This document shows, piece by piece, positions 1,020 to 22,331 of a stretch of DNA of 45,863 nt (position 1 is its first letter; the number at the start of each line of letters is the position of its first letter). The translations under genes and the position numbers were made by a program. A model generated the notes under the pieces. It saw nothing but the letters and a program-made list of their open reading frames with translations. It had not been told where the DNA came from and did no database searches. The stretch comes from Flavobacteriales bacterium (GTDB lineage: Bacteria > Bacteroidota > Bacteroidia > Flavobacteriales_F > PHOS-HE28): contig JAGPDT010000023.1 of NCBI GenBank assembly GCA_018057455.1, positions 1 to 45,863 on the forward strand, in the 5' to 3' direction.

Positions 1020-4000
1020 CTACCTGCCCGGCGCCTCCACCTCCACCCACCGGCCTGCGTTGCGTGCGCTGATGGTATTGTCGTACATCGCCGAACAGGT
1101 GGTGCTGGGCAGATGGAAACGGCCGGTGTAGGCGGCGTTGAGGAGCACACGGTAAGTGGCGCTTTCGCCAGCACCGAGGTCGAAGTAGGTGAGCACGCGG
1201 TCGTCGCGGATGTCCTGGTAGTTGAAGTAGCTGTTCCGCACGGCATCCTCCGTGCCTTCCATGCGGCTGTTGCGGATCTCCCACCCGCTGGGGAACACTT
1301 GGGTGAGCGCCAGTTCGTGGTAGCCGCCGCGTGTTCCGGGGTTGTGCACGGTGACCACCGCTTGGAAGTCGGTGCCTTGGCCCAGCGTGGCGGGATCGAG
1401 GGTCTTGCCGTCCATGGACTGGTATTCCACCTGCAAGGCCAAGCCGTTGCTGGCGGGATGTTCTTCGCCGGCCACGGGGATGCCGGTGCGCACCAGGCGC
1501 AGGTAGATCAAGCTTTTGCCGGTGTTGCTGATGGAAGCTTTGTGCTGGCCGTTGGGTGCGGGCAGGTCCACGCGGGCCACGGCCTTGGCGCTCACCCGGT
1601 TGTCCGTTCGGCCGTTCACCACGGCGGTGTAGTGCATGGTGTGGTCCAGGCTCTGCCCGGCGGCCACACGGCTTACCGCCAGCAGGGCCCATGCGGTGCT
1701 TTGCGTGCTGAACCATTCACCGCTGCTGAGGCGCCCGGCGATCCGGCGCGCCACGTTGGCGGCGCCGGCCTTGTCGTCCATGCGCAGCAAGGCCTCGGCG
1801 ATGACGGCTTCATCGCGCAGGTCGCTGCCGTAGGTCCAGGCCATCTCGCGGTAAGGTTGCACGGCGGTCTCCAGGTCTTTGATGATGTCGCGGGCCACAT
1901 CCTTGCGGTTGTTCAAGGCATAGGTGGCGGCGAGCATCCAGCGCGCGGGCCCGGGCAGGGCGGGGGTGGTGCGCAAGCGGTTCATGGCGCCGGACTCCGC
2001 GTTGTTGGCCAGGGCCAGCACGTACAAGCGGTAGGCCTGCGCAAGGTGGTCGGCATTGCGGCTCCACTGGTTCCGCTCCACCGGCGCCCAGTCGCGGGCC
2101 TGCTTGCGGGCGTGGTTCAACCAGGCATCCTTCAGCCCGGGGGGGGAGCTGAAACCTTTGCGCTCCGCTTCCACCATGAAGTGGCCGGCATAGGTGGTGG
2201 TCCAGTTGTCGGGTTCCCGGTCACCGGGCCAATAGCCGAAGCCACCGTTGGCGGTCTGGAATTGTTTCAACCGGTTCAAGGCGCTCTGTACGTTCTGCCG
2301 CAGGGTGTTCAGGAAGGCATCGTTGAGGTCCATCACATCGGCCAGGTACAACTGTGGGAAGGCCTTGCTGGTGGTCTGTTCCAGGCAACCGTGCGGGTAG
2401 TCGATCAGGTATTGCAGGCGGCGGCCCAGGTCTACCGGGGGCAGGGTGCTCAGTTCCAAGTACGCGCTGTTGGTGCCCGCAAGGCCCAGTGCCTGGGGCT
2501 TGGCTTCCCACGTGCTGCCCGGCTCCACGATGGCCTCCTCTACTTCGGTCTCCGGTTGCCCGGCCTGCCGCACGTCGATCTCCATGCTTTGCGTGGAACG
2601 CTCGCCTGCGCCTTCCGCAACAAGGGTCACCTTGCCCACGCCGAGGCGGTCCTTGAGCTTCACACGGAAGGTGACCACCTGTTCTCCGGCCTGGGTGAAT
2701 GAGAGCGCTTTCTCCGCGCCGCTTTCCACGGTGAACAGGTCGTTGGTGCTGAGGCTCAGTTTAACGTGTTTCACCTTGGGGTCCATGGCAAACACGGTGA
2801 CGGGGAGGTCCACGGTTTCACCGGGTCCCACCACCCGTGGCAGGGTGGCCAGCAACATCAGGGGTTTGCGCACGGGCACGGTTTTCTCTGCGCTGCCATA
2901 GGCGCCGGTCCGGGTGTTGGCCACCACCATGATCCGCACGCTGCCCACGTAGTTGTCGATGGTGAACTGGTGTTTGGCCGCTTGGCCCTTGGCCAGTGTG
3001 AACGGCCCCACGAAGCGCACCACCGGCTTGAAGCGCTGCGCCTTGGCGGCTTCCGCCGGGTTGAGCTGGTCGCTGCCGCCCAAAGCGAGCACGCGGCGCA
3101 GGCGTTGCCCGAAGGCTCCGATCACCTGGTCGTACACATCCCAGGTGCGCACGCCCAAGGCTTCGCGGGCGTAGAAGTGGTTCCACGGGTCGGGCGTGTG
3201 GAAGCGTGTGAGGTCCAGCAGTCCTTCGTCCACGATGGCCAAGGTGTAGGTCATGGCCTTGCCGTTCTTTTCGGCCACTTCCACGCTGAAGGGCTGGTCG
3301 GTCTTGAATTCCTTGGCGCTGGTGATCACCGGTAGGAGGTGGGTGGCGGGATCCTCCACGAGGATGGGGATGGCGCCGTACAGGCGGATGGGCAGGTCGT
3401 TGCCCATGGCCGCCGGCACATCACTGGCCGGGGCGGTGTGGGCGTGGGGTTGCACCAGGGTGACGTGGGCGTAGATGTTGGGCGCCATGTCCGCGGTGAT
3501 GGTGAAGCGGTATTTGGTCTCCTTGGCGTTGAGTTCGATCCACTTGGTTTCCAGGATGCGGCTGCCGCTTTCCAGGCTTACCAGTGCACGGCCCTGCCCG
3601 GAGCTGGGGATGGTGAGCTCGCAGGGGTCGCCCACGGCATACTTCTGTTTGTCGCTGTTGAAGCGCAACAGGGCGGCGGCGGTGCTGGCTTCGCGGCTGC
3701 TGCGCCCGCCATAGCCGGGCCAGTCCAGGTGGAGCATGGTGGCCGAGGCATGGTTGCTTGCGGGGTCCAGCAGGCGCACGATGAAGCGCCCCCATTCCGG
3801 TTGGTCCACCCGGAAGTGGAAGGTGGCCTTGCCTTGTGCGTCGGTGGTGAGGTCCTGTTCACTGATCACGCGTGAGCTGGGTGCGGACATGTAGTTGCCG
3901 GGGGAGTCCATGTCGCCGCTCCACCACCAGTTCCGGCCCAACTTCACCACTTGTGCTTTGAGGCCGTGCCGGGGCAGGGGGTTGCCGTTGGCATCCACGG

Positions 4001-6611
4001 CGAAGGCGCCCACCGCGTAGGTGGTGTCGGTGAAGTAGCCGCCCCAAGGGCTGGTGCTTTCGGGCATTTGCAGCCCGGCATAGCTTGCATAGGGGTAGTA
4101 CTGCACGTCGGTGCGGTCCACGCTGGCCTCACCACCGGCTTCGAACACACGCGTCACCACGTTCACCTTCACGGCCGCCGGCACTTGCCCGTTCAGGCGC
4201 AGATCGAAGGGGAACGCGGCATGGCCCGTGGCGTTGAGCGCGCCATCGAAGAGGATCATTTCACCGGTGTTCAGGTCGCTGCCCAGGTCATCGAAATGGT
4301 AGTTCCCGGCACCCTTGAAGCTGGCGTGCGAACGGGTGATGCTGGCGGTGACGCGCGCCTTGAGGTCCTTGGCCGGGGCACCATGCAGCCAGTTGCTTTG
4401 CAGTTGCGCGGGTTTGCCGCCCGTGGCGGCGAGGCGGTCGCCGCCCAGGTCCAGCATCACCTTCAGCCGGTTGGGTTTCACGGTCTCAATGCGGATGGCC
4501 TTGTGGAAGGTGGTCCCGCCCACGGTGACGCGGGCATTCCACGTGCCGGTGGGCGCATCGGCGGGGGTGGTGCATGGGAAGGCATAGGTGCCGTCCATAC
4601 CGGTGGTGCGCACCAAGCGTTGCTGCAGGCGGCCCAGGGGGTCGCTTAGCTCAAAGGTGACGGGGATGTTGGCGGGCAATGCCTGCCGGGCCTGTTGGAG
4701 GATGAAGGTGAGGTGGAGCGGATCGCCGGGCCGCCACACGCCGCGCTCACCGTACAAGAAGCCCTTGAGCCCGTTGTCCACGCTTTCGCCGCCCACGTCC
4801 AGGTCGCTCACGCTCAGTGCGCTGCCAGCGTCCAGCTTCAGGTAGCCGCGTTGTTTTCCCTTGCTGGCCACGAGCAGGAAGGGTTGGTGGGCGGTGGCGG
4901 CCACCGTGGCCATGCCGTCGCGGCCGGTCTTCACGGTGGCCATTGTGCGGCCCTGGAGGTCCAGCACGTGCAGGTCCACGCCGGCCACGGGATCGGTGGA
5001 GCGAAGGTCGCTCACGGCCAACCGCATCGATCCGTCGTTGCCGCGCTTGGCGATCAAGCCCAGGTCGGAGGCCAGGATGTTGCGCTGCACGACGCTGCCT
5101 TTGTTGCGGTAGTAGCTGGGGGTGCAGGGGTCTTCGCGTTCCTGCCAATTGTATTCGCCTTCGTCCTCATGGTCGTAGTAGCCGTAGTAGCCGTAAGGGT
5201 TGTCCCAGTCCTCGTCGTCCAGCTCGTCGGGCACTTGGCTCACCAGCGGTGGCGGGGTGGTGCCCGCGTGGCCGCACGGATAGGTGGCCTGTTCCTGCCG
5301 GAAGCCGAGGATGATGCGGTAGATGGCACCGGGTTCTGCTTGGATCAGCTTGTCGAGGTCGAGGTGGTAGCGTTGCCATTCGCCGGTGCGGATGCCGTCC
5401 TTTCGTTCCAAGGCCACGGTCCTCTTCAACATCAACCGGCCAACGAGGGTGAGGTTGTCCCCTCCGCCGAGTTCGTTCACCTGCAGGAATTGCGGCACGT
5501 TGTCGGCGTAGATCTTCACCACGCGCACGTCCACGGCATGCAGGTTCACCGCCTCGAAGGGGAAGAGCAGGCCATCGGTGGAGGGCAGGATGGTGCCGTT
5601 GCCCACGGTGCGCACGTTGGGTTTCACCTCCTCGAACCGCAGGTCCACGTTCAGGTCCTTGCCCATGGCATGGCCGGCGGTGTTCTTCAGCCCGGCGGCA
5701 ATGAAGGCGGCTTGGTCGCCGGTCAGGCGTTCGGTGGGGTACAGCAGGAGCTTGTTGCCGCTCACGGCGGCACGCACGTTCTCCACGCCCCGTATGCCCG
5801 CCAGCCCATCGAGGTCCTGTGCGGGGTCCAGCGGGTCGCTGAACAGGAGCGTGGCGTATTGCTCCCCGTCGGTGAAGGTCTCGGTGCGGACCAGGCCGAA
5901 GGCCCCGATGGCGGGCACTTCGAAGGTGAGCGTGCCTTGGTCTTTGCCGCCGATCTTGCGGGCGTCCCACTTGAATTCAACCAAGCTGGCCGTGGAGCCG
6001 CGCCGGACGCTGTCGGCCACGGCGCGGTGCAGGGTGCCGCCGGGCTCATGTTCCCAACTGAGCTTCAAGTTGCGGCCCTCCTGGGTGGCGGCCACGCTGC
6101 CGGCGAGGTCCGGCCCGTTGGCATCGTCGCTGGTGAATACGCTCACCACCACGCGCTGCCACTGCAGGTCGGCGGGCGAATGGGGTTGCAGGTCGCTCAC
6201 TTGCACCTCAATGGCCTGTTCCACGGTGCTGAAGCCGAATTTGAATTCCGCCAGCTCCTTGGGCACGTCCACCAACCGGCCAAGCCGGAAGGTAACCTGG
6301 TATACTTGGCCTTGCCGCAACCGCTCCTTGGGCTGGAAGGACAGGGTGTTGGCGTCTTCCCAGCGCACGGTTCCCTCGGTGGAGGGATCCAATGCGAAGA
6401 TCGCTTGCAGGGCGGCTTGCGCGGTGTCCTTCAGCACCAACCCCTCGGCGAGCCTGACCCGCACGGGCGCCCGCGCGGAGACATGGCCGGAAGTGAAAGC
6501 CTGGATGTAGGGCACGAAGGCGTCGCTGGGGCGTTGGGGCGATCGATCACGGGTGCAGCCCAAGAGGCACAGCAGGATGAAAGCCGGAAGCAGTGGCGCG
6601 GTTCGCAACAT
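1020..6611 (-). CDS. Alpha-2-macroglobulin family lipoprotein
   Basis: A giant envelope protein of 1863 residues. Bacterial alpha-2-macroglobulins trap attacking proteases through a bait region and a reactive thioester, and are thought to protect the periplasm. The chosen ATG gives a short signal peptide ending in LLCLLGC, a lipobox; a start 15 codons upstream would only add non-signal residues. The thioester motif is intact: HGCLEQTTS with Cys1409 and Gln1412, followed by the helical thioester domain (QTANGGFGYWPG). The central part has the MG-type beta domains and a carboxypeptidase-regulatory-like stretch, and a C-terminal receptor-like domain ends the protein. An odd acidic, Tyr/Gly-rich insertion lies near residues 462-490. 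No pbpC, the usual partner in Proteobacteria, is adjacent. Flanked by 100- and 180-base gaps, it looks monocistronic. The family call is secure; the biological target is unknown. Confidence 0.93.
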   Translation of the reverse strand: MLRTAPLLPAFILLCLLGCTRDRSPQRPSDAFVPYIQAFTSGHVSARAPVRVRLAEGLVLKDTAQAALQAIFALDPSTEGTVRWEDANTLSFQPKERLRQGQVYQVTFRLGRLVDVPKELAEFKFGFSTVEQAIEVQVSDLQPHSPADLQWQRVVVSVFTSDDANGPDLAGSVAATQEGRNLKLSWEHEPGGTLHRAVADSVRRGSTASLVEFKWDARKIGGKDQGTLTFEVPAIGAFGLVRTETFTDGEQYATLLFSDPLDPAQDLDGLAGIRGVENVRAAVSGNKLLLYPTERLTGDQAAFIAAGLKNTAGHAMGKDLNVDLRFEEVKPNVRTVGNGTILPSTDGLLFPFEAVNLHAVDVRVVKIYADNVPQFLQVNELGGGDNLTLVGRLMLKRTVALERKDGIRTGEWQRYHLDLDKLIQAEPGAIYRIILGFRQEQATYPCGHAGTTPPPLVSQVPDELDDEDWDNPYGYYGYYDHEDEGEYNWQEREDPCTPSYYRNKGSVVQRNILASDLGLIAKRGNDGSMRLAVSDLRSTDPVAGVDLHVLDLQGRTMATVKTGRDGMATVAATAHQPFLLVASKGKQRGYLKLDAGSALSVSDLDVGGESVDNGLKGFLYGERGVWRPGDPLHLTFILQQARQALPANIPVTFELSDPLGRLQQRLVRTTGMDGTYAFPCTTPADAPTGTWNARVTVGGTTFHKAIRIETVKPNRLKVMLDLGGDRLAATGGKPAQLQSNWLHGAPAKDLKARVTASITRSHASFKGAGNYHFDDLGSDLNTGEMILFDGALNATGHAAFPFDLRLNGQVPAAVKVNVVTRVFEAGGEASVDRTDVQYYPYASYAGLQMPESTSPWGGYFTDTTYAVGAFAVDANGNPLPRHGLKAQVVKLGRNWWWSGDMDSPGNYMSAPSSRVISEQDLTTDAQGKATFHFRVDQPEWGRFIVRLLDPASNHASATMLHLDWPGYGGRSSREASTAAALLRFNSDKQKYAVGDPCELTIPSSGQGRALVSLESGSRILETKWIELNAKETKYRFTITADMAPNIYAHVTLVQPHAHTAPASDVPAAMGNDLPIRLYGAIPILVEDPATHLLPVITSAKEFKTDQPFSVEVAEKNGKAMTYTLAIVDEGLLDLTRFHTPDPWNHFYAREALGVRTWDVYDQVIGAFGQRLRRVLALGGSDQLNPAEAAKAQRFKPVVRFVGPFTLAKGQAAKHQFTIDNYVGSVRIMVVANTRTGAYGSAEKTVPVRKPLMLLATLPRVVGPGETVDLPVTVFAMDPKVKHVKLSLSTNDLFTVESGAEKALSFTQAGEQVVTFRVKLKDRLGVGKVTLVAEGAGERSTQSMEIDVRQAGQPETEVEEAIVEPGSTWEAKPQALGLAGTNSAYLELSTLPPVDLGRRLQYLIDYPHGCLEQTTSKAFPQLYLADVMDLNDAFLNTLRQNVQSALNRLKQFQTANGGFGYWPGDREPDNWTTTYAGHFMVEAERKGFSSPPGLKDAWLNHARKQARDWAPVERNQWSRNADHLAQAYRLYVLALANNAESGAMNRLRTTPALPGPARWMLAATYALNNRKDVARDIIKDLETAVQPYREMAWTYGSDLRDEAVIAEALLRMDDKAGAANVARRIAGRLSSGEWFSTQSTAWALLAVSRVAAGQSLDHTMHYTAVVNGRTDNRVSAKAVARVDLPAPNGQHKASISNTGKSLIYLRLVRTGIPVAGEEHPASNGLALQVEYQSMDGKTLDPATLGQGTDFQAVVTVHNPGTRGGYHELALTQVFPSGWEIRNSRMEGTEDAVRNSYFNYQDIRDDRVLTYFDLGAGESATYRVLLNAAYTGRFHLPSTTCSAMYDNTISARNAGRWVEVEAPGR

Positions 6612-6789
6612 GCAGGGGAGGATCAGGCCAGCAAGATAGGGGGCGGGGGTGGCCACCCGCTGTCGGGCAATTCCACCACGGTGGTGAACGGTGCCGGTAG
6701 CGCGGGCGTGCCGCTTGCGACCGGTGCAACCCTACCAAGGGACCGCCGGGCCCTGCTCCAGCGCTGGATGCGATCGGTCCGACCGGGGA

Positions 6790-14252: not shown

Positions 14253-14256
14253 GGGG

Positions 14257-15339
14257 CTACAAAGGTCGGGCGATCTGCGGCCTTTTGGTCATGGCGTAAA
14301 GCACACCGGCCACGATCAGGGCATAGCCCAGGTAGAACAGGCTGTGGAAGGGCAGCCATACCGGGATGAAGGCCAAGGCGATGAAGCTGAGGAAGGCGGA
14401 TACCAGGCCCAAGCCGCCGAACACCATGGCCACTTGCGGGTCGGTGAGGCCGGCATAGCTGAGGTAGTGGGTGGTGTGGTCCTTGCCGCCCACGAATGGT
14501 GAGCCTCCCTTCAGCAAGCGGTTGATCGATACGGTGGCGGTGTCGGCCAAGGGCAAGATGAAGACCACGACGGTCACCGAGACCTGGCGCCAACCGTTCA
14601 CCGTGCCGTCCAAGGCGGTGGTGTTCCAGAAGAAACGGATGCCCACATAGGCGAGGAACACGCCCAGGAACTGGCTGCCCGTATCGCCCATGTACATCCG
14701 CGAAGGATGCCAGTTGAAGAACAGGAAGCCGCCCAAGGCCCCGCACACGGCGATCATCACCACGGTGTGGATGTCCGCGGCGGTGCGGGTGAAGAGCTGG
14801 GCGAGCAAGGCCGCCACGAGTATGGCCAAGGCCACCACCGAGGTGATGGCGTCCATGTTGTCCAACAAGTTGATGGCGTTCATCAGCCCCACCACCCAGA
14901 GCAAGGTGAGGCTTTGGTCCAACCAGGCGATGCCGGAGAGGTCGATGCGGGTGCCCGTGGCCAGGAGCAGGAGGCCGCAGCAGATCTGGGTCACGAATTT
15001 CAGCAGGGGCCGTGTGTCGTAGGCGTCATCGGCCAGGCCCATGAGGAAACCCAGCCCGGTGGCGGCGAGCAACCCCAGCAGTTCCGGCCTGAAGGGATCG
15101 GTAGTCCGGGGGAAGAGCACGTTGAAGGCGGCAAAGCCGAAGAGGAAGACGATGAAGAAGCCGATGCCGCCGAAGGCCGGTTTGGAGCAGGCGTTCCAGC
15201 GCATCAGCCCGGGGGCGTTCTCCCGGATCCCGAAGGTGTGGAAGAAGCGCATGAACAGGGAGTTCACCAGCAGGGTGAAGAACAGGGCCAGGAAGAACAG
15301 GCCCGAAAGCAGGAAGAACAGTTGTTCCGTGGTGTACAT
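14257..15339 (-). CDS. MraY/WecA-family undecaprenyl-phosphate sugar-1-phosphate transferase
   Basis: 360 residues with about 10 membrane helices. Enzymes of this family move a sugar-1-phosphate (often GlcNAc-1-P) from a UDP-sugar to undecaprenyl phosphate at the inner face of the membrane, the first step of O-antigen, capsule or teichoic acid synthesis. Visible motifs: FGGIGFF in the first loop, the Mg-binding DDAYDTRPL, NAINLLDNMDAIT (the NxxNxxDxxD motif), MYMGDTGSQFLG, and the late His motif GKDHTTHYLSY. It stands between an RmlC-type epimerase and a lytic transglycosylase, in an operon with Wza- and Wzc-like genes, so it is the likely initiating transferase for that polysaccharide. WecA-like function is more likely than MraY, which normally sits in the dcw cluster. 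The substrate cannot be read from sequence. Confidence 0.88.
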   Translation of the reverse strand: MYTTEQLFFLLSGLFFLALFFTLLVNSLFMRFFHTFGIRENAPGLMRWNACSKPAFGGIGFFIVFLFGFAAFNVLFPRTTDPFRPELLGLLAATGLGFLMGLADDAYDTRPLLKFVTQICCGLLLLATGTRIDLSGIAWLDQSLTLLWVVGLMNAINLLDNMDAITSVVALAILVAALLAQLFTRTAADIHTVVMIAVCGALGGFLFFNWHPSRMYMGDTGSQFLGVFLAYVGIRFFWNTTALDGTVNGWRQVSVTVVVFILPLADTATVSINRLLKGGSPFVGGKDHTTHYLSYAGLTDPQVAMVFGGLGLVSAFLSFIALAFIPVWLPFHSLFYLGYALIVAGVLYAMTKRPQIARPL

Positions 15340-15342
15340 GGC

Positions 15343-15891
15343 CTATTGTGCCCAGGCCCGGGCCTTGAACGGCGCCCCGGCCAGGTCCTTGTCGCTGATG
15401 AGAGGGCGGTCGATGCCCCAGTCAATGGCCAGGTCGGGGTCGTTCCACAGGATCGTGCGCTCGGCCGCCGGGGCATAGTAGGCCGAGCACTTGTAGGAAA
15501 AGACCGTCTCTTCCTCCAGCGCTACGAAGCCATGGGCCATGCCCTCGGGGATGTAAAGCAGTTCGTTCTGCCGGTCGTCCAGGCGGATGCCCACGTGCTG
15601 CCCGTAGGTGGGGCTGCCGGGCCGGCAATCCACGCATACGTCCAGTACCGCGCCCCGCACCACCCGCACCAGCTTGGCCTGGGCATGCGGGGCAACCTGC
15701 AGGTGCAGCCCACGCAGGACCCCGGCCCGGGAGCGGCTCTCATTGTCCTGCACGAACCGGTCGGTGATCCCGGTGGCCTTGGCGAACTGCCCGGCGTTGA
15801 AGGTCTCCATGAATTGCCCCCTGGGGTCGCCGAACACCCGGGGTCGGATCCGCAGCAGGCCGCCGATCGCGGTGGTGAATACCTCGATCAT
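15343..15891 (-). CDS. rfbC: dTDP-4-dehydrorhamnose 3,5-epimerase family protein (RmlC-like)
   Basis: 182 residues, a cupin-type epimerase that in the standard pathway converts dTDP-4-keto-6-deoxyglucose to the L-lyxo form for dTDP-L-rhamnose. Family features: FGDPRGQFMETF, QDNESRSRAGVLRGLHLQ with the catalytic His, YGQHVGIRL, LLYIPEGMAHGF, and the Tyr-containing SYKCSAYYAP. The ATG at 15891 overlaps the kinase stop codon in an ATGA arrangement; 9 extra codons upstream are not needed. The other rhamnose genes (rmlA, B, D) are not in the window, so it may work with genes elsewhere or act on a related deoxysugar. Confidence 0.87.
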   Translation of the reverse strand: MIEVFTTAIGGLLRIRPRVFGDPRGQFMETFNAGQFAKATGITDRFVQDNESRSRAGVLRGLHLQVAPHAQAKLVRVVRGAVLDVCVDCRPGSPTYGQHVGIRLDDRQNELLYIPEGMAHGFVALEEETVFSYKCSAYYAPAAERTILWNDPDLAIDWGIDRPLISDKDLAGAPFKARAWAQ

Positions 15892-18344
15892 GGTTGTTGG
15901 AATAGGCGGGAGTACCAATGGCGCTTCCCGGTGGCCTTGGACCGGTCTTCATAGTACCCTTGGCCGTAGCCGTACCCATAGCCGTAGCCATAGCCGTAGC
16001 CGTAGGAATAACCGTACTTGTTGCGGTCCACGTCCACGCCGTTCAGCACGGCGCTCAGGCGTTTGATCTGGTTCTCGTTGATCAGGCGGTCCACGTTCTG
16101 CACGAAGGTCTTCTTGGAATAATCCGCGCGGAAGATGTAGATGGGGATATCGGCCTTCTGGATGATGGTGATGCCGTCAGTGACCAGGCCCACCGGGGGG
16201 GTGTCGATCAGCACCACGTCGTAGCGCTCTTTGAGCCGGTCCAGGATCTGGTCCATGGCCGGGCTGATGATGAGCTCGCTGGGGTTGGGCGGCGTGGGCC
16301 CGGCGGTGATGAAATCCAGCCCGGGCAGGTTGCTGTGTTGGATGCACGCGTCCAGGTCGTGCTTGCCAATGAGCAGGGTGCTCATGCCGTGCAGGTTTTC
16401 CGCACCGAAGCCGAGGTGGATCTTCGGCTTGCGCATGTCCAGGTCCAGGATCACCACGCGCTTGTCGCTGAAGCTGATGATGCCACCCAGGTTGATGGCC
16501 ACGAAGGTCTTGCCCTCGCCGGAGATGGTGCTGGTCACCGCGATCAGCTTCGGGCCCGGGGCGTTGTCCACGAACTGGAGGTTGGTGCGCACACTGCGGA
16601 AGCTTTCGGCAATGAGCGACTTGGGGTGTTTGTCCACCAGCAACTGGCTCACGGGGATCTCCTTCTTGTACTTGGGCACCATGCCCAGGATGGCCACCGA
16701 TGAGTTGCTGGCCTTGGCCACGTCGTTGAGCGAGGTGATGTTGTTGTGCAGGATGTAGCGCACCACCACGATGAGGATGCCCAGGACCAGCCCGGTGAGG
16801 ATGTAGGTGAGCATCACCACGCCACGGTCCGGCGATACCGGCCGGGTGGGCAGCGCCGCGGATTCCAGTATGCGGTTCTCCGGCACGAAGCCCGCCTTGC
16901 TGATGCGGTATTCGATGTCCTTCTCCAGCAGTTGGGTGTAGTACTTCTCGTTGATGTTGAAGAGCCGCTCGATCCGTGCGTAGGCCAGTTCCTGCTGCGG
17001 CAGGTCGCTGAAACGGCCTTCATATTCACTGAGCTTGCGCTCGAAATCCGCCATGCGGGAACGGATCCGCCCCCGCATCACCCCGATGCTCTCCATGATG
17101 AGCTGCTGCTGCTGCTCCACCTGGCGGTCCAGCATGCGCAGGCTTTCGTTCTCGGTGGTGGCCTCAAAGGCCATTTGCTCACGCTGCTGGAGCAGGTGGC
17201 CCAGCACCGTGATCGCTTCTTCCAAGGTGCCGGCGAACTGGGTGCCGGCCAGCAGCGGCCGCAGCTGGTACACGTCCATGTGGCCCGCATCCTGTTTGGC
17301 GGCATGTTCGATCTCCTGCAGCAGCTTGTCCTCCATGCGCAGCTTGAGCATTTCGTTCTCGTACTCATCGCTGCGCGCCAACAGCAGCGGGGTGAGCTGC
17401 TGCATGTTGCTCACCCGGTTGTCCCGCTTGAAGATGCCCAGCTGCAGCTCGCTGGCCCGCAATTCGGCGAACACCGTGTCCTTCTGGCTTTCAATGAACC
17501 GGAGTATGCTCTCGGCACTTTCCGACTTGCGCTCCACATCATACTTGATGAAGGCCTCGGCCATGGCTTGGCACAGGTCGCGCGCCAGCATGGCGTTGTG
17601 GTCCTTGGTGCCGATCTGGATCGTCTTGGCATTGGGGTCGGCAATGGCCACGCTGATCTGCCCGGAGAGGTCGGCGGTGAGTGTGCGCGTGTCGTTCAAG
17701 GTGAAGTAGTGCGTGCCGCGGTCCTGCCCGGAAGGCCATGATCGTTGGCCGGCGTAGGCGAACACCGCCTTGAAATGCGGGGTGGTGAACGGTTTGCCCG
17801 GGGTGATCGGCAGGCTCACCATGCGGTTGCCCAGCGCATAGGACAGCTCGATCCCGCCTTCCTCCGTCCGTGCCAAGGTGATCGGCGTGCGCAGGATGGA
17901 GGCATCGGCGATCTCCACCTGGTCCACTTTGTAGAAGGACTGTTCGTAGCGCTCCTCGGTGAGGATCTGCCCGCGGAAGAAGTACCTCACCTGCATGGGC
18001 AACAGTTCCACCGCCTTGCTGATGAAGAAGCCCGAACGCAGGAGCTGCACGTCGGCCTGGAGGTTGTTGTCCTCGATCAGGGGCGTGTTCATCTTCAGCA
18101 CCGTTTGGGCATTGTTGGTGAGGCCCAATTGCAGCACCACGCTGCTGGCATAGGTGGGTGCGGTGTAGCGCAGGTAGAGGTAGCCGGCGCAGAAGGCCAG
18201 CACCAGGCACATCATGATCCAGATCAAGGTGCGCTTGACGATATAGACGAAGAGGCCGAGGTCGAACTCGTTGCTGAAGTTGGTGATGCGGTCGCGGTAG
18301 CTGTCCAGCTGGGCAGCCCGGTTGCTCACCTCGTCGTTCAACAT
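15888..18344 (-). CDS. Polysaccharide biosynthesis tyrosine autokinase (Wzc-like)
   Basis: 818 residues. Combines a Wzz-type chain-length region with a cytoplasmic BY-kinase and works with the Wza-like lipoprotein next door to build and export polysaccharide. Two membrane helices (about 35-58 and 512-532) flank a periplasmic region with long coiled coils (about 260-450). The kinase has Walker A TSTISGEGKT (Lys612), Walker A' VVILDLDMRKPK and Walker B VVLIDTPP. The C-terminal tail has 11 tyrosines, mostly in a Tyr-Gly dipeptide repeat around residues 776-797, the usual site of autophosphorylation in BY-kinases, then a basic KATGKRHWYSRLF end. It starts 9 bases after the wza-like stop and overlaps the epimerase gene by 4 bases. 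The repetitive tail is unusually regular and is reported as a finding. Confidence 0.94.
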   Translation of the reverse strand: MLNDEVSNRAAQLDSYRDRITNFSNEFDLGLFVYIVKRTLIWIMMCLVLAFCAGYLYLRYTAPTYASSVVLQLGLTNNAQTVLKMNTPLIEDNNLQADVQLLRSGFFISKAVELLPMQVRYFFRGQILTEERYEQSFYKVDQVEIADASILRTPITLARTEEGGIELSYALGNRMVSLPITPGKPFTTPHFKAVFAYAGQRSWPSGQDRGTHYFTLNDTRTLTADLSGQISVAIADPNAKTIQIGTKDHNAMLARDLCQAMAEAFIKYDVERKSESAESILRFIESQKDTVFAELRASELQLGIFKRDNRVSNMQQLTPLLLARSDEYENEMLKLRMEDKLLQEIEHAAKQDAGHMDVYQLRPLLAGTQFAGTLEEAITVLGHLLQQREQMAFEATTENESLRMLDRQVEQQQQLIMESIGVMRGRIRSRMADFERKLSEYEGRFSDLPQQELAYARIERLFNINEKYYTQLLEKDIEYRISKAGFVPENRILESAALPTRPVSPDRGVVMLTYILTGLVLGILIVVVRYILHNNITSLNDVAKASNSSVAILGMVPKYKKEIPVSQLLVDKHPKSLIAESFRSVRTNLQFVDNAPGPKLIAVTSTISGEGKTFVAINLGGIISFSDKRVVILDLDMRKPKIHLGFGAENLHGMSTLLIGKHDLDACIQHSNLPGLDFITAGPTPPNPSELIISPAMDQILDRLKERYDVVLIDTPPVGLVTDGITIIQKADIPIYIFRADYSKKTFVQNVDRLINENQIKRLSAVLNGVDVDRNKYGYSYGYGYGYGYGYGYGQGYYEDRSKATGKRHWYSRLFQQP
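15961..16016 (-). repeat. Hexanucleotide repeat coding for the Tyr-Gly tail of the kinase
   Basis: About seven in-frame copies of a six-base unit (plus strand gccgta or gccata, with ccc and acc variants) encode alternating Tyr and Gly. Because the unit is a multiple of three, gain or loss of copies would change the number of tyrosines without breaking the frame. Confidence 0.85.
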
Positions 18345-18353
18345 GCCGGCAAT

Positions 18354-19112
18354 TTACTTGAACGTCTGGATGATGCCCAATACGAGCACGGCGCTGGTCA
18401 ACAAGGTGATCAGCGGGGTCACTTCCTGCAGGATGCCCCGGGCGATCTCGGCGTTGGGTTGCACGTACACCACGTCATCGGCCTGCATCACCATGTCCGC
18501 GTACTTCAGGTTATCGATGTCGGAGAGGTCGAACTCGAAGATCTTGCGCTGTTCGCCGTCCTTGCGGAAGAGCTTCACCCGGCGGGCATCGCCGCGCTTG
18601 GCGATGCCACCGGCGCGGGCCAGCACTTCCAGCAGGGAGGTGTTGTTGTTCTCCAGCATCACCACCTTGGCATCGCCGCCGCCACCGGGAAAGACCACCA
18701 CGCGGCGGTTGCTCACCGAGAGCAGCACGAAGGGTTTTTGGTAGTAGGTGGAATAACGCTGCTCCAGGGCCATCTCGGCCTCCCGGATGCTGAGCCCGGC
18801 CACGGGCACATACCCCACGACCGGAAGCTTGGCCTGCCCGTCAGGGTGAACAAGGTAGGAGAATTGGATCCGGTTGGCACTGGTCATGGAGAGGTTTTCC
18901 TCGTTGACCATATCCACCATCTTGAAGCCGTCGTTGGCATACATCCGGAAGGAGAGCACGTCGTCCGGTTGGATCTTGAATTGCCGGTCCAGGGTGTCCG
19001 AGGCCGTGTCGAACTGGTAGTCGCGCGGGGTCTTGAACATGATGTCCCGGTTGATCGCACAACCGGTGAACATGAGCGCGGCCAGGCCCAACACGATCGA
19101 CAATTTCCCCAT
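18354..19112 (-). CDS. Polysaccharide export outer-membrane lipoprotein (Wza/Wzb-type channel family)
   Basis: 252 residues. The family forms the outer-membrane export channel for capsule or exopolysaccharide. A lipoprotein signal ends in ALMFTGC (Cys18). The polysaccharide export domain is visible at IQPDDVLSFRMY (about 45-57) and LVHPDGQAKLPVVGYVPVAGLSIREAE; a SLBB-like domain follows with VVVFPGGGG, LLEVLARAGGI and ADDVVYVQPN. A C-terminal hydrophobic helix (about 232-248) is typical of Bacteroidota members. I chose the ATG at 19112, which gives the lipobox signal; 68 upstream codons of the open frame are not signal-like. It is the first gene of the six-gene unit and has a good promoter box 18 bases upstream. 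Confidence 0.92.
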   Translation of the reverse strand: MGKLSIVLGLAALMFTGCAINRDIMFKTPRDYQFDTASDTLDRQFKIQPDDVLSFRMYANDGFKMVDMVNEENLSMTSANRIQFSYLVHPDGQAKLPVVGYVPVAGLSIREAEMALEQRYSTYYQKPFVLLSVSNRRVVVFPGGGGDAKVVMLENNNTSLLEVLARAGGIAKRGDARRVKLFRKDGEQRKIFEFDLSDIDNLKYADMVMQADDVVYVQPNAEIARGILQEVTPLITLLTSAVLVLGIIQTFK

Positions 19113-19129
19113 TCGCTCCGGATTTCGCG

Positions 19130-19137
19130 CAAAAGTA
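19130..19137 (-). promoter_or_regulatory. Putative -7 box for the polysaccharide export unit
   Basis: On the minus strand the box is TACTTTTG followed by CGCG, a full match to TAnnTTTG. The wza-like ATG is 18 bases downstream. No TTG is seen at 17-20 bases upstream. It would drive the six genes down to uvrA. Confidence 0.45.
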
Positions 19138-19158
19138 ACCAAAGGCCCCCGCCCGGCT

Positions 19159-20385
19159 TCAGGCCAGCAACCCGGTGTACAGCGTGGCCATGTCGCCCAC
19201 CAGCCGGGCATAGTGGTACCGGGCACCCACTTGGTCCCAACCGGCTGCGGACATGCTGGTCCGCAAGGCGTCGTTTTCCACCAGGCGCAACAGGCCCTCG
19301 CCGAAGGCGCGCACATCGTTGTTGGGGCACAACAGGCCGGTGGTGCCTTCCTGCACCACGTTCTCTATGCCGCCCACGCGCGTGCTCACCACGGGCTTGC
19401 CTGCGGCTTGGGCCTCGATCAGGCTTACCGGTGTGCCTTCGTTGTAGCTGGTCAACGCCACGATGTCCGCACCGGCGTAGGCCAGGTCGATCTCGTTGAT
19501 CCAACTGGTGAAGGTCACGTCCGCGCGGCCTGTCACCGGCGTGCCGTTCACCCCGTGGCCGAACCCATGGCCATTGAAACCCGGCGCCTTTGCCAGGCTC
19601 AATCCGAGGTCTGCCACTTGGTGTTCTATGCGCGTGCGGTCCTCCCCGTCGCCCACGATGAACGCACGTACGCGCTTGCCGGTGCGCTGCTGGACGTGCT
19701 TGATGCCTTTGAGGAAGAGGGCGTGGTTCTTCACCGGCACCAGGCGGCCCACGATCACCACGGCCAGTTCATCATCGGCCAGGCCGTACACCCGGCGGAA
19801 GAGCGCGCGCTTGGCCGCTTGGTCCGCCCTGAACTTGCCCAGGTCGAACCCCAGGGGGATCACGGCCACCTTGTCCGCCCGGCACACGCGGTGCTCCTGC
19901 ACCAGTTCCTGCTTTTGTTTCTCGCTGATCGCAATGATGCGCGAGGTGCGTTGCGCCAGGAAGCGCTCGATGTTCTTGAACACCGCGGTGCGCACCGGGC
20001 CGAAGTAGCTGTGGAACACATGGCCATGGAAGGTGTGCACCACGGCTTTCACGCCCAGGTCATGGGCGGCCAGGCGCCCCACCGCACCGGCCTTGGCGGC
20101 GTGGGTGTGCACCACGTCCGGCTTGTAGTCCTTGATGATCTGCTTGATGCGCCGGTAGGCGGTATGGTCCTGCCAAGGCGAGACCTCGCGCTGCATTTCG
20201 GGCAGCACCATGGCTTCCACGCCCAGGGACCGGAGGATGTGCCCGCTGCCTTCCTCATGCGGCCCTTGGGGACCGCCCACCAGCAAGGTCTCGAATTCAT
20301 CCGGCAGGTACCTGGTGAGGTAGGCCGCATTGTGGGTGGGGCCGCCCAGGTTGAATCGGTTGATGATGCGAAGTACCCGTGGCAT
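19159..20385 (-). CDS. Glycosyltransferase family 4 (GT-B fold)
   Basis: 408 residues. Likely transfers a sugar from a nucleotide donor to a growing surface glycan in the cytoplasm. The N-terminus RVLRIINRFNLGGPTHNAAYL with the Gly-rich loop, the acceptor-domain VHTHAAKAGAVGRLAA and the donor-site motif YNEGTPVSLIEAQAAGKPVVST, with two Glu residues spaced as in the EX7E motif, place it in the GT4 group. IPLGFDLGKF and VIVGRLVPVKNHALFLKG start the second Rossmann domain as usual. The start at 20385 was chosen because 32 upstream codons have no family similarity. It follows asnB after 68 bases and precedes the export unit by 46 bases, so it belongs to the same polysaccharide locus. Confidence 0.9.
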   Translation of the reverse strand: MPRVLRIINRFNLGGPTHNAAYLTRYLPDEFETLLVGGPQGPHEEGSGHILRSLGVEAMVLPEMQREVSPWQDHTAYRRIKQIIKDYKPDVVHTHAAKAGAVGRLAAHDLGVKAVVHTFHGHVFHSYFGPVRTAVFKNIERFLAQRTSRIIAISEKQKQELVQEHRVCRADKVAVIPLGFDLGKFRADQAAKRALFRRVYGLADDELAVVIVGRLVPVKNHALFLKGIKHVQQRTGKRVRAFIVGDGEDRTRIEHQVADLGLSLAKAPGFNGHGFGHGVNGTPVTGRADVTFTSWINEIDLAYAGADIVALTSYNEGTPVSLIEAQAAGKPVVSTRVGGIENVVQEGTTGLLCPNNDVRAFGEGLLRLVENDALRTSMSAAGWDQVGARYHYARLVGDMATLYTGLLA

Positions 20386-20453
20386 GGCGTGGAAGAGTTT
20401 GCGGTCCGGTACCGGAGGATGAAGGAGCTGTGGAGAGCAGCTTGAAAGGGCGG

Positions 20454-22331
20454 CTAATGTACCGTTCGCGCCTTCCACCACGCTACATAGACGAGCAGTG
20501 CGTGCACGGTTGCTTGTGCGGTGCCGGGATCGGCGGAACGGAGCCGGCGCACCACCGCGGCCGTGCGTTGCCGGTCCAGGCCGGCGGCGGCCACGGCATC
20601 CGGGTGGAGCACCTCATCCACCAAGGGGGCCAAGGGCCCGAGCAGCAGGTCGCGCAAGGGTACTTCAAACCCTTTCTTGGAGCGTTGCATCACCACGGGC
20701 GGCAGCAGGTGGCCGAAGGTCTGCCGCAGGATGTGCTTGCCCGAGCCCTTGCGCAGCTTCAGGTCCGGCGGCAGCGCAAAGGCCAGCTCCACCACCCGCC
20801 GGTCCAGGAAGGGGGGGCGTACCTCCAGGCCATGGGCCATACTGGTGAGGTCCACTTTGTGCAGCATGTCGTTGGGCAGGGTGGAGGCCACATCGGCCAG
20901 CAGCACGCCGTTGAGCCCCTGCAGTACGCCCAACGGGGCGGCCAGCACGGCATTCCTCCGGGCCAGCCCGCCGGCATGGGCGGGGGTGGCCACCAATGCC
21001 ATGGCCTCCTCCACGGGGGTGAAGGCCGCCAGATGCAGAAAGCGCTCCTCGCCGCTTTGCCCGGCCATGCGGGCGAAACGGTCCAGTTGCCGGATGCGGT
21101 TCTGCCAAGCACTGTTGCGTGAGCGTGGGAGGGCGCTCCACAAGGGGGCCAGCAGGGCCACGGCACGTTCGGCGGCGCCGGGCTGGCGCCAACGCAGTTC
21201 AGCCTGGTGCTTGGGGTAGCCGCCGAAGACCTCATCGGCGCCATCGCCGCTGAGGGCCACGGTGACTTGCCGGCGGGTGCGCTCGCACAGGATGAAGGAA
21301 GGCAACGCCGAACTGTCGGCGAAGGGTTCGTCCAGGGCCTTCAGCAGCCGCACATACCCATCGGCCAGTTCCTCGCGCCCCAGTTTGAAGGTGTGGTGCT
21401 CGCTGCCGATGTGCGCGGCCACTTCTTCCGCATAGCGGGTCTCATCGAAGTACGGGTCCTCCGCATAGCCGACGCTGAAGGTGTGCAGATGCCGGTGGTG
21501 GCGGGCCGCCAGCGCACTGATGATGCTGCTGTCCACCCCGCCGCTGAGGAAGGCGCCCACGGGCACATCGGCCTCCAGGCGCAGTTTCACCGCATCGTCC
21601 AGCAGTTCATGCAGGCGCTCCTGCGGGCCCGGTGGCACAGGGGTGCGCTTGGCGGCGGTGGCCAGGTCATACCACGGGCTGGTGCGCATGCCTCGGCCAT
21701 CCGCGTAGAGGGCATGCCCGGGCATGAGCTTCTGAATGCCCTGCACCGTGGTGTGCGGTGCCGGTGTGAAGGAGAAGGTGAAGAACTGGCGTGCCGAATC
21801 CGGGTCGGGCCGGGCAGGCACGCCAAGGGCCAGCAAGGCGCGCAGCTCGCTGCCGAACAGCAGCGTATCCTGGTGCAGGGCCCACAGCAGGGGCTTCACC
21901 CCAAATCGGTCCCGGGCCAGGAACAGCGTGTCTTCCTGTGCATCATGGATGGCCAGGGCAAAGAACCCGTTGAGGTCATGGAGGAACTCCGGCCCCTTGA
22001 CCGTGAAGAGGCGCAGCACCACCTCGGTATCGGTGCGGCTGCGGAAGGTGTGCCCCTGTTGCTCAAGGCCGGAGCGGAGCTCGCGGAAGTTGAAGACCTC
22101 GCCGTTGAACACGATGGTGTAGCGGCCGCCCTGGTCGGTGAAGGGCTGGTGCCCGGCGGCACTGGTGTCCGTGATGCTCAACCGGCGGTGGCCCAGCATG
22201 GCACGCCCCTGGGCATGGCGCCCTGCATCATCCGGCCCGCGGTGGGCGATCACCTCCAAGGCCGCACGGACCCGTTCTTCCGCCACGGAAGCACCCGGGC
22301 CGGTCCGGAAAGCGCCGATGATCCCGCACAT
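20454..22331 (-). CDS. asnB: Asparagine synthase (glutamine-hydrolyzing)
   Basis: 625 residues. The N-terminal class II glutamine amidotransferase releases ammonia, and the C-terminal domain uses ATP to amidate aspartate. The start MCGIIGAF gives the nucleophile Cys after Met removal; RHRGPDD-like IAHRGPDDAGRH, GHRRLSITD and FNGEVFNF follow. The synthetase domain has the PP-loop FLSGGVDSS near residue 265 and ALSGDGADEVFGGY later. Proteins of this kind occur often in polysaccharide and exosortase clusters, where some amidate sugars or wall components instead of aspartate. The neighbouring glycosyltransferase and export genes make that a real alternative. Confidence 0.92.
   Translation of the reverse strand: MCGIIGAFRTGPGASVAEERVRAALEVIAHRGPDDAGRHAQGRAMLGHRRLSITDTSAAGHQPFTDQGGRYTIVFNGEVFNFRELRSGLEQQGHTFRSRTDTEVVLRLFTVKGPEFLHDLNGFFALAIHDAQEDTLFLARDRFGVKPLLWALHQDTLLFGSELRALLALGVPARPDPDSARQFFTFSFTPAPHTTVQGIQKLMPGHALYADGRGMRTSPWYDLATAAKRTPVPPGPQERLHELLDDAVKLRLEADVPVGAFLSGGVDSSIISALAARHHRHLHTFSVGYAEDPYFDETRYAEEVAAHIGSEHHTFKLGREELADGYVRLLKALDEPFADSSALPSFILCERTRRQVTVALSGDGADEVFGGYPKHQAELRWRQPGAAERAVALLAPLWSALPRSRNSAWQNRIRQLDRFARMAGQSGEERFLHLAAFTPVEEAMALVATPAHAGGLARRNAVLAAPLGVLQGLNGVLLADVASTLPNDMLHKVDLTSMAHGLEVRPPFLDRRVVELAFALPPDLKLRKGSGKHILRQTFGHLLPPVVMQRSKKGFEVPLRDLLLGPLAPLVDEVLHPDAVAAAGLDRQRTAAVVRRLRSADPGTAQATVHALLVYVAWWKARTVH

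Follow-up and report, generated by a model that had tools for sequence, protein, structure and literature searches.

A regularly spaced tyrosine-glycine tail on a Wzc-type kinase of Flavobacteriales: conservation and length change

The kinase gene and its polysaccharide locus

The window, by which the whole analysed stretch of 45,863 nucleotides is meant, belongs to a 3.3 Mb genome to which uncultured Flavobacteriales bacteria are the closest named relatives. Its minus strand encodes, at 15888-18344, an 818-residue Wzc-type BY-kinase and polysaccharide co-polymerase, an ORF in which a Wzz and GNVR co-polymerase part is fused to the kinase domain. Wzz (residues 25-111) and GNVR (454-530) are recognized by Pfam above cut-off, and Pfam also identifies AAA_31. 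A preliminary description of this DNA had called the product Wzc-like, which is borne out by the autokinase family model TIGR01007 (160.9 bits, cut-off 108.05) and by matches to solved Wzc chains in the PDB, with E values down to 8e-51. The Walker A, A' and B motifs read GEGKT, DLDMRKP and LIDTPP, align with those of the reference kinases and are invariant at most columns of our alignment A1. In particular, the Walker A motif TISGEGKT spans residues 606-613 (16506-16529, minus strand), with G609-T613 invariant in A1, and the Walker B region VVLIDTPP spans residues 710-717 (16194-16217, minus strand). A G7 run (C7 on the coding strand) lies at the Walker B proline codons (16195-16201) and, unlike the Tyr-Gly array described below, could slip out of frame. 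The predicted structure of the kinase, computed from an 18-row alignment of one genus, has a mean pLDDT of 63, mostly below 60 in the kinase part, and supports no claim made here.

The surrounding genes, of which those given here with coordinates are all on the minus strand, are those of an exopolysaccharide locus. Directly upstream of the kinase is a Wza-type polysaccharide export protein (18354-19316; Pfam Poly_export, 4e-13, plus SLBB), and a group-1 glycosyltransferase (19159-20481; Glycos_transf_1, 1.1e-27 for 19316-20481) and asparagine-synthase genes are also found upstream. The kinase is followed by an RfbC-type dTDP-4-dehydrorhamnose 3,5-epimerase (15343-15891; Pfam 6.4e-69 for the ORF from 15918), whose ATG overlaps the kinase stop codon as ATGA, and beyond it by a family-4 glycosyltransferase (14257-15339; Glycos_transf_4, 1.5e-25), which we take to be WecA-like. 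The candidate tyrosine phosphatases of the genome, two LMW-PTP and one CpsB_CapC, are all on contigs other than that of the kinase. Elsewhere in the window, a large bacterial alpha-2-macroglobulin-like protein of 1878 residues is encoded at 1020-6656 (minus strand). The same genome holds two further kinase-like genes, one with a less regular Tyr-Gly tail (L002:1318-2814, only 498 residues from the chosen start) and one that ends in GYGYVYE, without an array (L003:1480-3807).

The tyrosine-glycine tail and its conservation

The C-terminus of the kinase ORF is DVDRNKYGYSYGYGYGYGYGYGYGQGYYEDRSKATGKRHWYSRLFQQP, with the tail NKYGYSYGYGYGYGYGYGYGQGYY. Nine alternating tyrosines (Y777-Y793) are followed by QG and then by YY, giving a Tyr-rich cluster with YxY steps that counts 11 tyrosines from Y777 to Y798. 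This Tyr-Gly array, YGYSYGYGYGYGYGYGYGQGYY, runs on the minus strand from the Y777 codon (16014-16016) to the closing YY, which ends at 15951. The preliminary description had counted about nine alternating tyrosines, which is the exact number in the translation, and had placed the array at 15961-16016; it does lie there, and its full extent is slightly longer (15951-16016). A variable basic C-terminal extension and the stop codon occupy 15888-15950 (minus strand); within the genus the extension measures 17-33 residues, with a mean of 5.5 Lys+Arg.

A kinase tail with multiple tyrosines is already a known kind, the Tyr-rich tail of BY-kinases, and is present here in a marked variant form. The closest model is the PCP-2a BY-kinase Wzc of E. 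coli K30 and K-12, which has the same Wzz and GNVR domains, Walker motifs, Tyr-rich C-terminal tail with YxY and Wza-type neighbour. According to PMC11986026, the tail of one K30 Wzc subunit lies in the active site of its neighbour with the tyrosine two residues before in a pocket, phosphorylation runs inward from the C-terminal end, and the fourth phosphorylation brings the loss of the octamer. In parallel, any single tail tyrosine of E. coli Wzc is reported as dispensable, while capsule production is severely impaired once at least four tyrosines are changed to Glu (PMC8285477). The kinase-tail part of the earlier interpretation has the support of family membership and literature, control of Wzc function by a multi-tyrosine tail being established in E. 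coli (PMC8285477, PMC11986026). The K30 tyrosines are irregularly placed (705, 706, 708, 713, 715, 717 and 718; PMC8285477), whereas those of the window kinase stand at every second residue, nine times. E. coli Etk and S. aureus CapB match the kinase domain with E values of about 1e-35 to 1e-38, and the Etk tail AYSYGYNYYGYSYS also has YxY steps; unlike the window kinase, both lack a long dipeptide array and have the pocket glutamate. Within Bacteroidota, Ptk1 of Porphyromonas gingivalis is a BY-kinase that spans the membrane, has a Tyr-rich cluster at its C-terminus and is reported to autophosphorylate (PMC4082711). No literature on Tyr-Gly arrays in Bacteroidota kinases was found among titles and the beginnings of abstracts, a search that mostly did not cover subscription papers, so that novelty is not implied.

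The pocket itself differs. In E. coli Wzc, Glu675 is proposed to exclude phosphotyrosine as part of the ratchet, a residue that does not define the family. It is glutamate in all four references (Wzc, Etk, BceF and CapB), while the aligned residue of the window kinase is F747 (codon at 16104-16106, minus strand), invariant in A1, and glutamate occurs in none of 54 aligned Bacteroidota rows; this is a comparison by sequence alignment from which a P-loop pattern filter excluded L002 and nine of 46 arrays. Since the array-less L003 is also without the glutamate, the change is a feature of the lineage, and the ratchet may work differently in Bacteroidota kinases.

Conservation was assessed in 45 genomes of the genus, the window's own included; family- and order-level searches gave the same 45. 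After added stretches, and with L041 dropped as identical to L042, 42 distinct orthologues were available, and two genomes, both below 75% complete (G007 and G031), gave no full-length orthologue. All 42, spanning 52-86% identity, keep the tail, with a longest (YG)n of 5-9 and 10-13 tyrosines; each tail starts with NKYGYx(YG)5, where x is N, S, T or A, and each has YY[DE]. The seven proximal tyrosines and the final YY are nearly fixed. Up to the closing YY, all but one of the 392 intervals between tyrosines are even (332 of two residues, 57 of four, and one each of three, six and eight), and the core, measured from NK to YY, has an even length in 41/42 orthologues.

Beyond the genus, 41 relatives at 38-49% identity have Tyr-rich tails with a longest (YG) run of 2-15, at least five in 36 of them; L118, whose longest run is two, was not used in the run tests, which cover 40 of the 41 outside arrays. 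The Bacteroidota relative L127 has 15 consecutive, codon-mixed Tyr-Gly units at the 3' end of its ORF. At least one (YG)5 site is found in 43/45 genus genomes, the two others being 73% and 69% complete, and in 50/296 genomes of a phylum sample. Among the matches listed, 48 arrays were read in context (30 phylum-sample loci and 18 more, among them one that the genus search had given), and 46 of them are at the C-terminal end of a BY-kinase, with kinase-domain E values of 1e-28 or lower. The two exceptions (L150 and L162) are Tyr-Gly-rich stretches in proteins without a kinase-domain match.

Array DNA and the tempo of length change

The array DNA of the window, TACGGC TACGGC TATGGC TACGGC TATGGG TACGGC TACGGC, had been described as a near-perfect six-base repeat, a phrase that is fair for its appearance only. 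TRF does find period 6 (score 65; 7.2 copies with 83% matches), yet ranks period 18 higher (score 69), and hexamer purity in the window array is not above that of arrays made by permuting its own codons (P=0.77) or by sampling codons from elsewhere in the gene (P=0.69). The regularity that exceeds chance is in the protein, not in the DNA. An exact 18 bp duplication is absent from the window's own array.

Under six-base slippage, neighbouring hexamers are expected to be identical more often than otherwise. No such excess is present in the genus, where 55 adjacent identical hexamers compare with 62.4 expected from within-array codon shuffling and 66.6 from draws on the rest of the gene. A wider test took in 186 arrays: 42 from the genus, 39 from outside it (L120, which contains N bases, was dropped here and kept in the earlier genus and outside array counts), 46 from the phylum and 59 from another genus, g6. 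The last set represents 48 of 118 matching genomes, among the matches listed, with arrays not confirmed as kinase tails; G101, G262 and G301 were counted in the phylum set, not in the g6 set. Identity of hexamers at lag 1 is depleted (192 against 223.2±10.2 expected, z -3.05), while the counts at lags 2, 3 and 4 are 201 against 181.0, 181 against 139.1±8.4 and 104 against 99.9. Likewise, arrays with an exact 6 bp tandem duplication fall short of expectation in number (101 against 126.0), whereas those with a duplication of 12 bp (22 against 13.0), 18 bp (10 against 1.5) and 24 bp (2 against 0.08) exceed expectation. Two sets account for the lag-3 excess, the phylum set (z 3.91) and the g6 set (z 3.19); the genus gives a weak signal (1.88) and the outside set none (0.28). 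The P values of all these array statistics are optimistic because the species are related. An excess of 12, 18 and 24 bp units indicates change in frame, by larger and rarer steps; together with the paucity of adjacent identical hexamers, it points to a length that evolves slowly. On these sequence statistics, the arrays of Bacteroidota can be read as changing length by multi-unit in-frame duplication or loss, not by single hexamers.

Six-base slippage was considered as the origin of the arrays and rejected as the main process, given the lack of a hexamer excess and the lag-1 depletion. That depletion is real, yet codon alternation as pure anti-slippage selection is not claimed, since the lag-3 excess may account for some of the depletion. 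Codon usage was also compared: TAC makes up 0.663 of Tyr codons in genus tails against 0.755 in the rest of the gene, but the few Tyr-Gly pairs that fall outside the tail (8 TAC, 4 TAT) are no different from it in this respect, and the lower TAC use may therefore reflect sequence context; outside the genus, TAC use is equal in the tail and the rest of the gene (0.391 vs 0.397). Some individual arrays deserve mention. A 13-unit array at about 14254-14330 of G467:C169 (minus strand) has a block of four hexamers (24 bp) duplicated exactly, which is a plain trace of multi-unit expansion. In group f18, which belongs to a different class of the phylum, the Tyr-Gly kinase tails L158-L161 include some that are nearly pure TATGGC/TATGGT, where recent expansion looks likely.

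The tempo of change was followed in 12 orthologue pairs with more than 90% nucleotide identity in kinase-domain DNA, which come from nine species in three clusters and are not independent; L046 and L047, cut at the N-terminus, were excluded. All 12 pairs have the same core length and no amino-acid difference in the tail. Synonymous differences per codon amount to 0.327 in the tail against 0.163 in the kinase domain, and nonsynonymous differences to 0 against 0.032. Equal lengths and unchanged residues amid many synonymous changes mean that it is the protein pattern that is conserved, the DNA not being an unusually pure hexamer repeat; judging from these substitutions, selection on the protein keeps the Tyr-Gly repeat and the tyrosine register. 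At 85-90% identity, core length is shared by 13 of 19 pairs. On a tail-free tree, core length changes 16 times (shuffled mean 23.5, minimum 19), the longest run 11 times (18.5, minimum 12) and the tyrosine count 13 times (16.5, minimum 12, with 4/300 shuffles as low). Since length labels follow the tree, array length is heritable and slowly changing. The genome collections cover one genome per species, and the sole pair of genomes with the same gene (L041 and L042) is identical.

The tail as a putative ratchet substrate

The array probably represents an autophosphorylated Wzc-type tail in an exopolysaccharide locus, a periodic ratchet substrate whose length changes by steps of 12-24 bp; ratchet and phosphorylation are here carried over, by analogy, from the work on E. 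coli. Each tail in the kinase ring would enter the active site of its neighbour. With a tyrosine at every second residue, the next one (i-2) would always be in the tyrosine pocket, so that phosphorylation could proceed from the C-terminal towards the N-terminal end by identical moves of two residues. Stepping would continue until the ring loosens, after which a phosphatase would reset it. The distal part of the tail would set the number of steps, and array length, by extension, the number of phosphorylation steps. By comparison with Wzc, a (YG)n tail would be an ideal periodic substrate for a two-residue step, and the near-absolute even register is what such a step would require. The register is kept by selection, with length changing rarely and in frame through multi-unit duplication or loss of 12-24 bp. 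An extended version of this reading strikes us as rather doubtful: Bacteroidota BY-kinases would have a many-step Wzc ratchet combining an exact-register (YG)n with a non-acidic pocket, in which length counts the phosphorylations that precede disassembly of the ring and determines how long the polymer becomes, codon mixing blocks six-base slippage, and 12-24 bp duplications retune the array.

The preliminary description had instead seen a hexanucleotide contingency locus, in which six-base slippage varies tyrosine number between strains and adjusts capsule output. Part of that proposal agrees with the data, in that species do differ in copy number by whole dipeptides, in steps of two residues, with an even core in 41/42 orthologues. 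Some arrays are also long or homogeneous, such as the codon-mixed (YG)15 of L127, the five TACGGA of L040 and the nine TATGGC out of ten in L158, and a slipping G9 tract is known in Amuc_1413, a Wzc-like gene of Akkermansia muciniphila (PMC13055324); as reported there, that simple repeat is a frameshift tract acting as a gene switch, unlike the array. The slippage itself fares badly: neither the window array nor the genus (55 vs 62.4) shows a surplus of adjacent identical hexamers, which are depleted over the 186 arrays (z -3.05), and the 12 closest pairs are constant in length. Nothing in the sequence evidence points to a six-base contingency locus, which we regard as very improbable.

No more credible is a mutational by-product, that is tandem duplication in a tolerant C-terminus under little selection. 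Multi-unit duplications do occur and the extension after YY is variable, but the tails of the closest pairs have accumulated many synonymous changes without one amino-acid change, and the array is retained outside the genus at about 38-49% identity. A spacer or sticky low-complexity region, in which Tyr-Gly stacking joins kinases, phosphorylation dissolves the contacts and exact register is unimportant, is unlikely, if less so than the two preceding accounts. It would agree with the alternating Tyr/Gly composition and with the YG-rich stretches of the two non-kinase proteins (L150 and L162); against it, a role of composition only would have no need for the near-absolute register of two seen in the genus (391/392).

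The avoidance of single-unit repeats, together with the enrichment of multi-unit duplications, calls for caution against regarding every codon-level repeat as phase-variable. As for the periodic ratchet substrate, the irregular tail of E. coli Wzc makes step number and register hard to dissect in that system. Kinases that differ naturally in their number of identical Tyr-Gly steps, from 5 to 15, would make it possible to ask directly whether the length of the tail determines how long the octamer lasts and how long the polysaccharide chains become.
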